From NCBI GenBank assembly GCA_949300145.1, contig CASGDA010000012.1:1-61075 (forward strand): 61,075 nucleotides of DNA. The letters are read 5' to 3'. Both the position numbers and the translations under genes were made by a program. Positions 35,261 to 39,331 of this stretch are shown in pieces. The notes beneath the pieces were generated by a model. That model saw only the letters and a program-made list of their open reading frames with translations, searched no databases and had not been told where the DNA came from. Source of the DNA: an uncultured Treponema sp. GTDB taxonomy: Bacteria; Spirochaetota; Spirochaetia; Treponematales; Treponemataceae. Position 1 is the stretch's first letter; each line of letters starts with the position of its first letter.

Positions 35261-35333
35261 ACACTATAAATAGTGATACGATAAACACCGAAATAAATAA
35301 TAACCCTATATACAGTGACACTGTATATAGTAG
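35261..35333 (+). promoter_or_regulatory. NrdR-box-like operators and promoter of nrdR-nrdD
   Basis: Box 1 ACACTATAAATAGTGA (35261-35276) lies between a possible -35 TTGCAT (35254-35259) and -10 TACGAT (35277-35282). Box 2 ACACTGTATATAGTAG (35318-35333) is part of a perfect 25-bp palindrome: arms CTATATACAGTG (35306-35317) and CACTGTATATAG (35319-35330) around one A. All resemble the ACACwATATATwGTGT consensus of NrdR. The gene directly downstream is nrdR, which fits autoregulation. The boxes are about 57 bases apart centre to centre, more than the usual paired spacing, so the palindrome may bring its own pair. Confidence 0.72.
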
Positions 35334-35350
35334 CTCAAGTGAGGTGTCCT

Positions 35351-35827
35351 GTGAGATGTCCCTATTGCGGAGGCTTTAACGACAAGGTTCTTGAGTCCAG
35401 AACTCTGGCGAACGGCGCGACAATCCGCAGAAGGAGGGAATGCATTGACTGCGGATACAGATTCACGAGCTATGAGAAAATCGAAGACCGCCAGCTGATG
35501 GTTGTAAAAAAAGACGGCCGGAGGGAGCCCTTTGACAGGGGCAAACTCGGACGGGGAATAAGCCGGGCGCTTGAAAAAAGGCCTTTTTCAAGCGACATGA
35601 TAGAAAACCTTCTTAACGAAATAGAAGATTTGGCTGTCATGGAAGGCAAAAAAAACGGGGAAATATCAAGTCCCCGGTTGGGCGAAATCGTTCTCAGGAA
35701 ACTTTATTCCATGGATAAGGTTGCCTATATAAGGTTCGCCTCGGTATACAAACATTTTGAAAATCTGGAAGAATTTATTTCGGAAGTGAAAAAAGCGGAG
35801 GGAGAAAAAAATGGCGGAGAATACTGA
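35351..35827 (+). CDS. nrdR: Transcriptional regulator NrdR
   Basis: 158 residues from GTG 35351. The zinc ribbon has CPYC close to the N-terminus and CIDC about 28 residues later; the following ATP-cone reads MVVKKDGRREPFDRGKLGRG, and YIRFASVYKHFENLEEF near the end is typical. NrdR represses ribonucleotide-reductase genes when bound to (d)ATP. The frame is open twelve codons further upstream, but those would lie in the operator, and NrdR proteins begin with MxCPYC. GAGGTG lies six bases before the GTG. The stop overlaps nrdD by 17 bases, so the two are coupled. Confidence 0.93.
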   Translation: MRCPYCGGFNDKVLESRTLANGATIRRRRECIDCGYRFTSYEKIEDRQLMVVKKDGRREPFDRGKLGRGISRALEKRPFSSDMIENLLNEIEDLAVMEGKKNGEISSPRLGEIVLRKLYSMDKVAYIRFASVYKHFENLEEFISEVKKAEGEKNGGEY

Positions 35828-37943
35828 TTCAAACACATCCCAGAGTGTGTTTCCCGAATGGAAGTATTTTCTCGGGACATCAAAGGATCCGGAAACGGCT
35901 TCGTTCATCAGGAATATTGTAAAACGGTCTGGGGAAATAACGGGATACGACCGTACAAAAATCGAAAAAGCCATCAACAAAGCCATTGAGGCGGTTGACG
36001 GCGAAGGGGACATGGAGAAGGCAAAAAAACTCACAGACAATGTGGAGGAAGATTTGCGTCTCCTGATGGCAGGCCGTCACGCCCATTCAATACCTGCAAT
36101 CGAGGAAATACAGGATATAGTCGAAAACGTCCTCATAAAAGCACAGCTTGTAAATGTTGCGAAGGCTTACATCCTTTACAGGGCGAAACATGAAGCCATC
36201 CGCGACACCCAGAAGCTTTTGCTGGACATCGACGAAACCATGAATGGTTATCTGAGCCAGTCAGACTGGCGTGTAAAAGAGAACGCGAACGTAAACTTTT
36301 CCCTGGGCGGATTGATTCTCCATAATTCCGGCACAATAACAGCCAATTACTGGCTTAAAAATATTTATCCTGAAGAGGTTGCGGAAGCCCACCGCAGCGC
36401 AGCCTTCCATATACACGATTTGTCCATGTTCTCCGGTTATTGTGCAGGCTGGTCCATCAGACAGCTGGTGACGGAGGGACTCGGAGGCGTTCCCGACAAA
36501 ATCACTTCAAAACCGGCGAGACACCTTTCAACGCTTATACAGCAGATTGTGAATTTTCTCGGCATTATGCAGAATGAATGGGCCGGAGCCCAGGCTTTCA
36601 GCTCATTTGACACCTACCTTGCCCCCTTTGTCAAAAAAGACAATCTGACGGAAAAGGAAGTCAAACAGTGCCTGCAAAGCTTTATTTACGGTGTCAACAC
36701 ACCCAGCCGCTGGGGTTCCCAGGCTCCGTTTACAAATATAACGCTGGACTGGAACTGTCCCAAGGATCTGGCAGGGAAACCTGCCGTTGTAGGCGGAGAG
36801 GAAATGTCCTTCACATACGGTGACTGCCAGCCGGAGATGGATTTAATAAACAGGCTGTTCATTGATCTGATGATTGAAGGGGATGCGGCCGGCAGGGGCT
36901 TCCAATATCCTATCCCCACATACAACATCACCAGGGACTTTGACTGGTCAAGCCCGAATGCCAGACTTTTGTTCGAGATGACAGCCAGATACGGAACCCC
37001 GTATTTCCAGAATTTCATTAATTCCGACCTGAACCCCAATGATGTCCGTTCAATGTGCTGCAGGCTCCAGCTTGATAAAAGGGAGCTGCGCAAACGCGGA
37101 GGCGGTCTGTTCGGTTCTGATGAATTCACCGGTTCAATAGGCGTTGTAACAATCAATATGCCGCAGATAGGATATCTGGCCAAAACAGAAGCCCAGTATT
37201 TCGCCAGGCTGGACTTCCTGATGGAGCAGGCTAAAATAAGCCTCGAACTGAAACGCAAGGTCATAAACCATCTTTTGGAAGGCGGTCTTTTCCCCTACAC
37301 AAAGCGTTATCTTTCCCATCTGAACAACCATTTCTCCACAATAGGAATCTGCGGTATGAATGAATCATGCCTTAACTTCCTTGGAGTGGATATAGTTGAC
37401 CCCAGAGGCAAGGCCTTCGCTGAAAAAGTCCTGCTGCATATGCGCCAGAAACTGGCGGATTTCCAGGAAGAAACCGGTTCACTGTTCAACCTGGAAGCCA
37501 CCCCGGCGGAAAGCACTTCATACAGGCTTGCCCGCCATGACAAGAAACATTATCCGGATATAATCACATCCGGAGTGGAGGATCCGTTCTACACTAATTC
37601 AAGCCAGCTTCCCGTGAATTTCACGACCGATGTGTTTGAAGCCCTTGACCACCAGGACGCCCTTCAGACAAAATACACGGGAGGAACCGTCTTCCATGTA
37701 TTCCTGGGTGAAGCGATAAAAAACTGGGAGGCTTGCCGCGATTTGGTAAAAGCAATCGCATACAATTACAGGCTTCCGTATTTCTCGATTTCACCAACAT
37801 TCTCCGTATGTCCCGTCCACGGATACTTGAACGGGGAACAGTTTGAATGTCCGCAGTGCAGGGAGGAAAGAAAAGCCGCCCTCATGAAAAAACTTGCGGA
37901 ACTCGAAGAAGAAAAGGCGGAAGCTGTTAAAGCCGGTTTATAA
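35811..37943 (+). CDS. nrdD: Anaerobic ribonucleoside-triphosphate reductase, large part (no glycyl-radical tail)
   Basis: 710 residues. An N-terminal ATP-cone-like segment (about 30-110) precedes the NrdD barrel: AAFHIHDLSMFSGYCAGW, NWAGAQAFSS-type region, QGxG-like GVNTPSRWGSQAPFTN and the finger-loop GICGMNESCLNF that should hold the thiyl cysteine. It ends with a Zn-ribbon remnant SVCPVHGY and CPQC. It makes dNTPs in the absence of oxygen with NrdG. The expected C-terminal RxxGY glycyl-radical block is missing; it is found on the next gene. The gap of 42 bases and the second gene's own ribosome site show the split is real. Confidence 0.92.
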   Translation: MAENTDSNTSQSVFPEWKYFLGTSKDPETASFIRNIVKRSGEITGYDRTKIEKAINKAIEAVDGEGDMEKAKKLTDNVEEDLRLLMAGRHAHSIPAIEEIQDIVENVLIKAQLVNVAKAYILYRAKHEAIRDTQKLLLDIDETMNGYLSQSDWRVKENANVNFSLGGLILHNSGTITANYWLKNIYPEEVAEAHRSAAFHIHDLSMFSGYCAGWSIRQLVTEGLGGVPDKITSKPARHLSTLIQQIVNFLGIMQNEWAGAQAFSSFDTYLAPFVKKDNLTEKEVKQCLQSFIYGVNTPSRWGSQAPFTNITLDWNCPKDLAGKPAVVGGEEMSFTYGDCQPEMDLINRLFIDLMIEGDAAGRGFQYPIPTYNITRDFDWSSPNARLLFEMTARYGTPYFQNFINSDLNPNDVRSMCCRLQLDKRELRKRGGGLFGSDEFTGSIGVVTINMPQIGYLAKTEAQYFARLDFLMEQAKISLELKRKVINHLLEGGLFPYTKRYLSHLNNHFSTIGICGMNESCLNFLGVDIVDPRGKAFAEKVLLHMRQKLADFQEETGSLFNLEATPAESTSYRLARHDKKHYPDIITSGVEDPFYTNSSQLPVNFTTDVFEALDHQDALQTKYTGGTVFHVFLGEAIKNWEACRDLVKAIAYNYRLPYFSISPTFSVCPVHGYLNGEQFECPQCREERKAALMKKLAELEEEKAEAVKAGL

Positions 37944-37985
37944 GTTTATAAAATAAATTTTCATAAATAAATTTGGGAGGATTTT

Positions 37986-38549
37986 ATGAGAACAGTAGAA
38001 GAAATCAATGCGGAAATCGAACGCACGAAAGAAGAGATTGAAAACGTGCACGGAACACAGACGGAAGTGTACGCCAGGATTGTCGGTTATTACAGGTCTG
38101 TGCGCAACTGGAACAAGGGAAAACGGGAAGAGTACAACCACAGAAAACTCTTTGAACCGGACGCCGGGGAAACATCCGGGCACCTGACAGGCAGGGGCAA
38201 CTGCATTATCGAAGAAAGGGACACATGCTGCGGCGGAAACGCGGCGGCTCCCGGCGCTTTTTCTTCTAAAGAAGGAAACAATCCGGTACGGTACGAGCTT
38301 TATTCCAGGACCGCCTGTCCCAACTGCCCGCCGGTAAAGGATTTCTGCGAGAACTCTTTCGAGAACGGAAAAATCATAGATGTGGATACAGAAACAGGAT
38401 TTGACGAAGCGAAGAAGAAAAACATCCTTTCCACACCGACTGTGATTTTCTATTCTGAAAACGGAAATGAAATCTTCAGGGCCCATTCAGTACAGGACAT
38501 AAAGAACGCCCCTGTGAAACTGGATATACGCGCATCTGTATCAGCCTGA
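37986..38549 (+). CDS. Glycyl-radical domain of NrdD fused to a glutaredoxin-like domain
   Basis: 187 residues. Residues 1-60 hold the C-terminal block of NrdD: VYARIVGYYRSVRNWNKGKR with the predicted radical glycine G34. A short linker with CIIEE and a CC pair (about 60-100) follows. Residues 102-187 look like a glutaredoxin: YELYSRTACPNCPPVK with a CPNC redox pair and the cis-proline STPTVIF. This suggests a trans-acting radical subunit with its own reductant. GGGAGG lies six bases upstream of the ATG. Small separate glycyl-radical proteins are known in some anaerobes; I have not seen the redoxin fusion described, but cannot check. A non-fused alternative would require a missed stop, which I do not see. 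Confidence 0.85.
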   Translation: MRTVEEINAEIERTKEEIENVHGTQTEVYARIVGYYRSVRNWNKGKREEYNHRKLFEPDAGETSGHLTGRGNCIIEERDTCCGGNAAAPGAFSSKEGNNPVRYELYSRTACPNCPPVKDFCENSFENGKIIDVDTETGFDEAKKKNILSTPTVIFYSENGNEIFRAHSVQDIKNAPVKLDIRASVSA

Positions 38550-38569: not shown

Positions 38570-39331
38570 ATGGTGCGGTTACGTGCGGGGCTTCAAAAAA
38601 CTTCACTGGTAAATTACCCCGGCCGCATTGCTGCGGCCGTGTTTTTACCGGGATGCAATCTCAGATGCCCTTACTGCTATAACAAAGAACTGGCCGAAGC
38701 CGATGCCGCGGCAGGACCGGGGGAAAACGCGGTTCAGGAATATTTTTCCCTGGAGGAAATAACAGCCCATCTGGAAAAACGTGCCGGGGTGCTCGGCGCC
38801 GTCGCTGTTTCCGGAGGAGAACCGCTGCTCTCCCCTGCCCTGGAGCCGCTGATTCTGAAGGCGAAGGAACTGGGACTTGCTGTAAAAATAGACACAAACG
38901 GAACCCTGCCGGACAAGCTTGAAGCCCTCATAAACCGGGAGGAAATCCGGCCCGACATGATCGCCATGGACATAAAAACAAAACCGCGGAACTATTATCT
39001 GCTTTGTCCGGGATATTCCGGCTGTATACCGGATACAGACGCAACCGCAGGAAAAATCGAGCGCTCAATCAGCATACTGGCAAAAGCCGCCGCGGAAAAA
39101 CTTATAGAGGTGGAATACAGGACGGTTCTTGTCCCAGGACTGACTGAAGAAGAGGACATCGAGGCCATATCCCTCCTGCTGCCCCATGACGCCGAATGGA
39201 AATTCGCGGCGTTTTCTCCCGGCGGCTGCATAAATCCGGAATGGGACAATATACAACCTTTCAGCCGGGAAAAAACCGACAAACTGCTGGAAATCGCCCG
39301 CAGGAATGTGCCCGCGGCTTCACTACGTTGA
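38570..39331 (+). CDS. nrdG: Anaerobic ribonucleotide-reductase activating protein (radical SAM)
   Basis: 253 residues. FLPGCNLRCPYCYNKEL has the CxxxCxxC that binds the 4Fe-4S cluster, and AVSGGEPLL is the SAM-binding GGE motif; VKIDTNGT and MDIKT follow. It generates the glycyl radical, here presumably on G34 of the protein encoded just upstream. It is longer than E. coli NrdG (about 154 residues) and resembles the larger activase type. The start ATG 38570 has no strong Shine-Dalgarno; GTG 38573 is an alternative. It is 20 bases after the redoxin-fusion gene. Confidence 0.9.
   Translation: MVRLRAGLQKTSLVNYPGRIAAAVFLPGCNLRCPYCYNKELAEADAAAGPGENAVQEYFSLEEITAHLEKRAGVLGAVAVSGGEPLLSPALEPLILKAKELGLAVKIDTNGTLPDKLEALINREEIRPDMIAMDIKTKPRNYYLLCPGYSGCIPDTDATAGKIERSISILAKAAAEKLIEVEYRTVLVPGLTEEEDIEAISLLLPHDAEWKFAAFSPGGCINPEWDNIQPFSREKTDKLLEIARRNVPAASLR

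Follow-up and report, generated by a model that had tools for sequence, protein, structure and literature searches.

The window analysed here is a 61,075-nucleotide stretch of DNA from an uncultured Treponema sp. (contig CASGDA010000012.1 of assembly GCA_949300145.1), and it encodes a class III ribonucleotide reductase (RNR) in two pieces. An nrdD gene whose product ends without the glycyl-radical tail is followed on the same strand by a small gene whose product carries that tail and a redoxin domain, and then by an activase gene (Table 1). A first-pass annotation of the window had described a glycyl-radical domain that is provided in trans, is fused to a redoxin-like domain and is encoded next to nrdG. 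This description stands: the NRDD family profile (PF13597) is shared out over the two proteins with nothing lost, and the gene next door matches TIGR02495. The gene coordinates, the 42-base gap between nrdD and the small gene (37944–37985), the GGGAGG, G34 and the CPNC motif given in that annotation all match the sequence.

The features of a class III RNR are present at the locus: an NRDD barrel, an ATP-cone, the finger-loop motif, the strand-A cysteine, the Zn-site residues and an NrdG activase. The closest solved relatives of the NrdD chain by sequence are 4coi and 4u3e. In characterised NrdDs the glycyl loop is usually on the same polypeptide, although this is not itself a catalytic requirement; it is not so here, which makes the enzyme a variant. 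A glycyl-radical motif within NrdD itself, which would speak against a tail in trans, was looked for: R..GY occurs nowhere in the window's NrdD chain, and no glycyl-radical motif was found in the last 120 residues of the distinct tail-less NrdDs (0/96). The first-pass annotation had NrdD stopping after a remnant of its Zn ribbon. The loss of the tail is borne out, but "remnant" is not the right word, because the Zn-site residues are complete and only the glycyl loop is gone. MCCR and Cys211 are kept in all 96 distinct tail-less sequences and the active-site Glu in 95 of them. The tail in the next gene is the only NRDD-type tail found in the window's genome.

In the small protein, Gly34, in the motif RIVGYYR, is followed by a linker and then by a predicted thioredoxin-fold domain with CPNC (C111–C114), which is the order that had been proposed for it, and RIVGY and CxxC are kept in all 101 distinct tail-redoxin proteins. 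Pfam matches to the small protein at E ≤ 1 comprise the end of NRDD, three thioredoxin families and one transposase match under its cut-off; the glycyl-radical family of the pyruvate formate-lyase (PFL) type gave no match at this threshold. Family-level matches of the redoxin are weak (Thioredoxin_3, 0.0031, under its cut-off; GlrX_YruB, 0.062), and the fold is thioredoxin-like. A 191-residue relative from Treponema berlinense, which bears the NCBI source name "anaerobic ribonucleoside-triphosphate reductase", is only the radical and redoxin arm, and its annotation is corrected here. In the window's nearest relative (L032:4932-5586, from the same genome as L146), tail and redoxin lie in two overlapping frames; the redoxin may be cut off there, or the assembly may be wrong.

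Table 1. Features of the split class III RNR locus (positions in the window).
Feature	Position	Strand	Basis
nrdR, RNR repressor gene	35315..35827	+	PF22811 and ATP-cone PF03477; 3' end overlaps nrdD start
nrdD without glycyl-radical tail, 710 aa	35811..37943	+	PF13597 profile 1-532 of 562, E 4.9e-175
NrdD ATP-cone, residues 35-128	35913..36194	+	PF03477, 5e-20
NrdD Cys211, strand-A cysteine by position in GYC motif	36441..36443	+	96/96 distinct relatives
NrdD finger loop MCCR, residues 415-418	37053..37064	+	96/96 distinct relatives
NrdD Glu562, aligned with Glu of NIEQ in T. maritima NrdD	37494..37496	+	Alignment; 95/96
NrdD Zn site C667, H670, C680, C683	37809..37859	+	Invariant, 40 aligned proteins
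NrdD C-terminal extension, predicted helix, likely docking element	37860..37940	+	Median 27 residues, 100 loci; model helix 681-707
GGGAGG, ribosome-site-like, for small gene	37975..37980	+	Sequence
Small gene, glycyl-radical tail and redoxin, 187 aa	37986..38549	+	PF13597 profile 532-562
Small-protein N-terminal extension, predicted helix, likely docking element	37986..38057	+	Joined-model helix 729-744; conserved hydrophobic pattern
Small-protein glycyl-radical tail; Gly34 at 38085-38087	38058..38153	+	PF13597 end; RIVGY in 101/101 distinct proteins
Small-protein thioredoxin-fold domain; CPNC (C111-C114) at 38316-38327	38280..38510	+	CxxC 101/101; fold
NrdG2-type activase, gene after small gene	38570..39331	+	TIGR02495, 134.5 bits vs cut-off 131.15

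The two genes share a reading frame in the window and single-chain orthologues exist, as would be expected if one chain were made by stop-codon read-through or if the stop were a sequencing or assembly error. In the window, however, nrdD has its own TAA, a second in-frame TAA lies in the gap and the small gene has a ribosome site of its own. The arrangement was compared across 121 stretches (L031–L150 and the window), all picked for similarity to the small protein or to its tail; no fewer than two genomes are represented twice in this set (L032/L146 and L090/L145), so motif counts were made on distinct sequences. A tail-less NrdD with a separate tail on the same strand was found in 100 stretches, a single chain in 10 (eight with the redoxin, two without) and a tail without NrdD in the stretch in 11. 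Named carriers include T. berlinense, Treponema bryantii, Treponema porcinum, Treponema socranskii and Brucepastera parasyntrophica. Among the 100 split loci the frame offset is 0, 1 or 2 in 44, 27 and 29 cases, respectively, so that 56 are not in the same frame; the gap ranges from -4 to 306 bases, and a ribosome-site match of at least four bases was found in 87, by a simple rule that was also used for choosing start codons. Together with the unlinked genes of 12 genomes and the extra sequence at the break that single chains lack, both described below, the three frames led us to reject frameshift, read-through and assembly error. A single chain in disguise is hardly credible, and the earlier statement that this is an arrangement and not a frameshift is upheld by the two in-frame stops and by the occurrence of all three offsets.

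A census of the window's family sampled 69 genomes, at least 95% complete except for the window's own. An NRDD core ending without a tail is present in 56, of which 55 also have a separate tail match; 12 have full-length NrdD only, and one genome (1.1 Mb) has neither. This conservation rules out chance as the source of the arrangement. A count of 218 of 392 phylum genomes as carriers was rejected because many of the matches are ordinary NrdD tails. The tail lies at least 95 kb from nrdD in 12 of the 55 split genomes, all in genera g2 and g3 (in G165, for example, NrdD is at 1,366 kb and the tail at 1,883 kb); therefore, the parts can meet there only as proteins. By other RNRs, the 55 divide into 22 with a class I/II large subunit, 11 others with a second full-length NrdD, one (G206) that stands apart because its pair is formed by another kind of NrdD, and 21 with neither, the window's included. 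No other NRDD match was found in the window's genome (2.24 Mb), nor any match to the class I/II large subunit PF02867, for which the control was positive in 11 of 14 genomes. As far as can be detected, the organism has no RNR besides the split one. A wider sole-RNR set was also considered: among 19 genomes checked, PF02867 was not found in G206, G116, G287, G111 and G232, of which G116 and G111 were dropped for their second full-length NrdD and G206 for its different NrdD.

In two genomes (G410 and G418), both with a class I/II RNR, the NrdD matches are in pieces, possibly through decay of the split enzyme. Such cases would fit an NrdD that is a decaying relic, its small protein taken over for another job. 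Against this, the catalytic residues are conserved and 21 genomes have no other detected RNR, and we consider it very improbable.

The position of the break is defined by the single chains, in which the distance from the last Zn cysteine to R[IV][VT]GY is exactly eight residues in 115 of 120 database proteins and 10 of 10 loci (125/130); two of the remaining five database proteins have spacings of 13 and 14, and three had no match to the search pattern. In the window, 27 residues of NrdD follow the last Zn cysteine and about 24 residues of the small protein precede the tail; single-chain NrdDs have neither. The same was seen on both sides of the break at all 100 split loci, with a median of 27 residues (20–34) past the last Zn cysteine and a small protein that starts a median of 35 residues (32–47) before the glycine. 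To our reading this is the new observation made here: in the split form, both chains are extended at the break. In the NrdD extension, positions 8, 12 and 15 are hydrophobic in 0.99–1.0 of 88 distinct sequences. In the 30 residues before the tail motif, positions 4, 7, 11, 18 and 21 are hydrophobic in 0.91–1.0 of 100, and position 14 more weakly so (0.46). Heptad spacing extends over 18 residues in the small-protein extension and only 8 in the NrdD extension.

An AlphaFold2 model of the joined chain predicts both extensions as helices (681–707 and 729–744), with block pLDDT of 83–96. The chain modelled was a read-through of both genes with both stops read as Gly, and the alignment included one-chain relatives. 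The prediction was made from alignments A5 and A1 only; A3 was misaligned in the tail, A4 was judged misaligned from its summary, and A6 served as an alignment only. On superposition, model residue 759 (Gly34) falls on Gly621 of Thermotoga maritima NrdD in four of the five entries that reach the tail and on Gly580 of the T4 enzyme in five of five. The two extensions are likely to be docking helices of the two chains; in the simplest reading, they would form a coiled-coil handshake in place of the lost covalent link.

A continuous reading frame in orthologues had been named as a finding that would tell against the split. Such orthologues were found: L111–L118 and the database protein P0138 are single NrdD-tail-redoxin chains. 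The split reading is not overturned by them, because the enzyme is split in 55 of 69 genomes, the genes have their own starts, there is extra sequence at the break and the genes are unlinked in 12 genomes. P0138 (885 aa) has the eight-residue joint and neither extension, which is what one would predict if the sole role of the helices is to keep two chains together. In a quick tree of 81 rows this protein, which represents one database cluster, sits inside the Treponema split clade and is likely to be a re-fusion. The tree as a whole has seven changes between split and single, with both forms intermixed; it came from a short search with no mixture model, long branches meet in it, and it leaves one split with later re-fusions and several splits both possible. 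Some of its redoxin labels are wrong (P0128 and P0135 have the CxxC domain), and no redoxin count was drawn from it.

One-chain NrdD-tail-redoxin proteins also occur in other spirochaete families and on viral contigs. Among the best 120 of 562 database relatives (P0121 and following), their source names include Margulisiibacteriota, Bacilli, Lachnotalea, Spirochaeta and a partial protein of Fibrobacterota. The redoxin fusion, earlier suggested to be perhaps new, is thus broader than the split, and a grx::nrdD fusion was mentioned in print in 2018 (PMC6187632). Separation of the tail is seen in more than one kind of NrdD, as two further genomes indicate: in G066 the split NrdD, of 701 and 55 aa, has neither the helix pattern nor the redoxin, and G206 (L153) has an MGCR-type NrdD of 775 aa with a separate 54-aa tail gene ahead of an activase-like gene.

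We propose, with a probability of about 0.82, that the locus encodes a two-gene class III RNR in which a tail-less NrdD docks through helices with the protein that carries the Gly34 tail and the redoxin, NrdG generates the radical in trans and the redoxin re-reduces the active site. The split, the added extensions with their hydrophobic pattern, the conserved motifs and the lack of another detected RNR are read directly from sequence; the working cycle is a proposal. The C-terminal helix of NrdD would pair with the N-terminal helix of the small protein at the break, and, as in one-chain NrdDs, the tail would enter the barrel to lie next to the MCCR finger loop. NrdG, encoded by the next gene, would then take a hydrogen from Gly34. 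After each turnover, the disulfide between Cys211 and one of the finger-loop cysteines would be reduced by C111/C114, which could be recharged by a thioredoxin reductase encoded elsewhere in the genome; a match over its cut-off is present in the window's genome. A borderline match to the beta chain of ferredoxin-thioredoxin reductase (G000:C11:24311-24502, with a TGA inside, 22.4 bits against a cut-off of 22) was not taken as evidence for an electron source.

Several observations weigh against this proposal. The redoxin is not obligatory, being missing from some split forms (five genus-g2 stretches, L119–L123, plus L128 and L155), and the hydrophobic pattern of the NrdD extension consists of three positions only. 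The modelled placement of the tail cannot count independently for assembly in trans, because a read-through chain was folded with one-chain relatives in the alignment; 4u3e_B and three entries from Prevotella copri superpose one residue off, and pLDDT is below 50 at 757–759 and about 50 in the region of the finger loop. Every one of the 12 genomes in which the genes are unlinked has a class I/II RNR as well, so the split enzyme may be dispensable there; these genomes count for less as proof that it is needed, though not as proof that its parts are separate genes. The window's genome is 94.65% complete. Finally, MCCR keeps the methionine of formate users.

That methionine matters for the identity of the reductant. 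Class III RNRs have been divided into single-cysteine (MGCR) and double-cysteine types; the double Cys with an active-site Glu is tied to thioredoxin use, methionine in the finger motif allows formate, and double-cysteine enzymes with this methionine are read as formate or thioredoxin users (PMC9669993). The window's enzyme has methionine and double Cys in MCCR, with Cys211 and the Glu kept, so both reductants are possible, and absence of methionine from the motif, the mark of thioredoxin-only enzymes, is seen in none of the 96 sequences. Glu562 is presumably the glutamate meant in that classification, given the alignment and Glu495 of T. maritima. The enzyme could therefore be assembled as described and yet use formate, the redoxin then having some other role, for example in protection or regulation of the radical subunit; the invariant methionine and the redoxin-free stretches listed above would fit. 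Against formate stand the retained double Cys and Glu, the CxxC kept in 101 of 101 proteins, the joining of the redoxin to NrdD in one-chain relatives too and the Grx::NrdB fusion of Facklamia, which reduces its own RNR (PMC6187632). We regard the formate reading as rather unlikely. Both the constant CxxC on the radical arm and the Facklamia precedent speak for the redoxin as the likely reductant.

Oxygen cleaves glycyl-radical enzymes at the radical glycine. The small protein might accordingly be a spare part for an oxygen-cleaved tail, not a standing subunit, as YfiD and Y06I are for PFL (PMC8683613). Lone NrdD-type tails do exist. Two scans of viral contigs from IMG/VR gave 46 loci: 31 with a single chain or part of one, 13 with a tail but no NrdD in the stretch, and two with NrdD and a separate tail. 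For 13 of 15 whole viral records (8.9–83.8 kb, completeness not known), no NrdD match was found anywhere on the contig. The lone tails are L180, L181, L183, L188, L189, L190, L193, L195, L199, L209, L221 and L223, and L179 is a tail-redoxin protein; L188 and L189 have the same tail sequence, one of the tail matches falls below the family cut-off, and a helix-like N-terminal extension is found in some and not in others. A further lone tail of 61 aa (L126:1106-1291, minus strand) is encoded in G066, whose NrdD is itself split; it adjoins a minor tail protein and a DNA methyltransferase, so that the stretch resembles a prophage. Among 20 neighbour proteins at eight lone-tail loci were a terminase and a portal protein (L180), a terminase (L223), a tail-collar protein and a methyltransferase (L193), the minor tail protein and methyltransferase of L126, transposition proteins (L199) and a helicase or primase (L179 and L183); the neighbours tested at L188 included nothing telling. 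Probing annotated phage records with two lone tails returned two records and one, none covering 80% of the query, and one viral-contig tail had 12 database relatives, one with a source name.

By analogy, these viral lone tails would be the NrdD counterpart of T4 Y06I. For the window's protein, the spare-part explanation presupposes a partner with a tail of its own, and its NrdD has none (0/96 among the tail-less forms) and no other NRDD match is present in the genome. In the 21 of 55 split genomes without another detected RNR, the tail would be needed constantly. We therefore consider a pure repair role improbable, although replaceability may still be a benefit of the two-chain enzyme.

Two other viral NrdDs (L182:1910-4984 and L222:1592-4447) have an insertion of about 320 aa that ends in THNC-RL at the second finger-loop cysteine and is intein-like by its end; no Pfam intein match was found in the L182 insertion. 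The NrdD of L182 lacks the tail but has a C-terminal extension, and the tail is encoded separately behind it. Another viral contig (L194:1281-5435) encodes an NrdD-tail-redoxin chain of 1384 aa with matches to an intein splicing domain and an HNH endonuclease. Phage nrdD genes are known to be split by inteins, introns or fragmentation (PMC3653736).

The two-chain arrangement is thus a real and conserved variant of class III RNR, and the likely docking extensions and viral lone tails go beyond the earlier reading of it. The oxygen-fragile radical site and its likely reductant would share one replaceable subunit, and the likely benefit is that oxygen would destroy only these 187 residues. A wider idea, which we put forward tentatively and which may well prove wrong, is that the radical is an exchangeable cartridge: a docking subunit with radical site and reductant that is swapped after oxygen damage, encoded far away in some spirochaetes and carried by phages as a lone gene that keeps the host or phage NrdD running. 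A two-chain RNR allows one to ask whether an RNR can have its glycyl radical formed on, and used from, a separate chain, whether the arm is replaced after oxygen damage and whether an arm-borne redoxin drives turnover. The authors of the YfiD study did not settle whether any enzyme besides PFL has such radical spare parts (PMC8683613). NrdD-type tails as separate genes in bacteria and on viral contigs are concrete candidates.

No report of a class III RNR whose tail is supplied by a separate chain was found in the open-licence PMC literature, as covered by titles and the starts of abstracts and, for longer result lists, by the best-ranked papers. The tail or its glycine is treated as part of NrdD in the portions available of PMC9531940, PMC11226230, PMC4390871 and PMC4493059, and the class III RNRs described in such sources have the radical glycine on the catalytic chain, from which it is separated here. 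The single-chain NrdDs of T. maritima, P. copri and T4 have the same barrel, Zn site, finger loop, RxxGY tail and activase, with an ATP-cone as in P. copri; in the window, by contrast, the tail is on a second polypeptide with a redoxin, and each side of the break is extended. One-chain NrdD-tail-redoxin proteins (L111–L118; P0121 on) have the same domain order and a C-terminal CxxC redoxin, but as one chain with the eight-residue joint and no helices. The sole mention of such a fusion met in print is the grx::nrdD of Lachnospiraceae bacterium TWA4 (available text of PMC6187632). Pseudomonas aeruginosa NrdJa/NrdJb is likewise a two-polypeptide RNR, the smaller chain of which mediates dithiol exchange, and the accessible part of its description calls NrdJab a unique split RNR in a free-living organism; it differs in being class II and B12-dependent with no glycyl radical (PMC4520616). 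Grx::NrdB of Facklamia ignava also has a redoxin on the radical-bearing subunit, shown to reduce the enzyme, but that is a class I metal-radical subunit with an N-terminal Grx (PMC6187632). In YfiD (GrcA) and T4 Y06I a small glycyl-radical domain is supplied in trans, as here, but to PFL, a partner that normally has its own tail, and in a repair role (PMC8683613).

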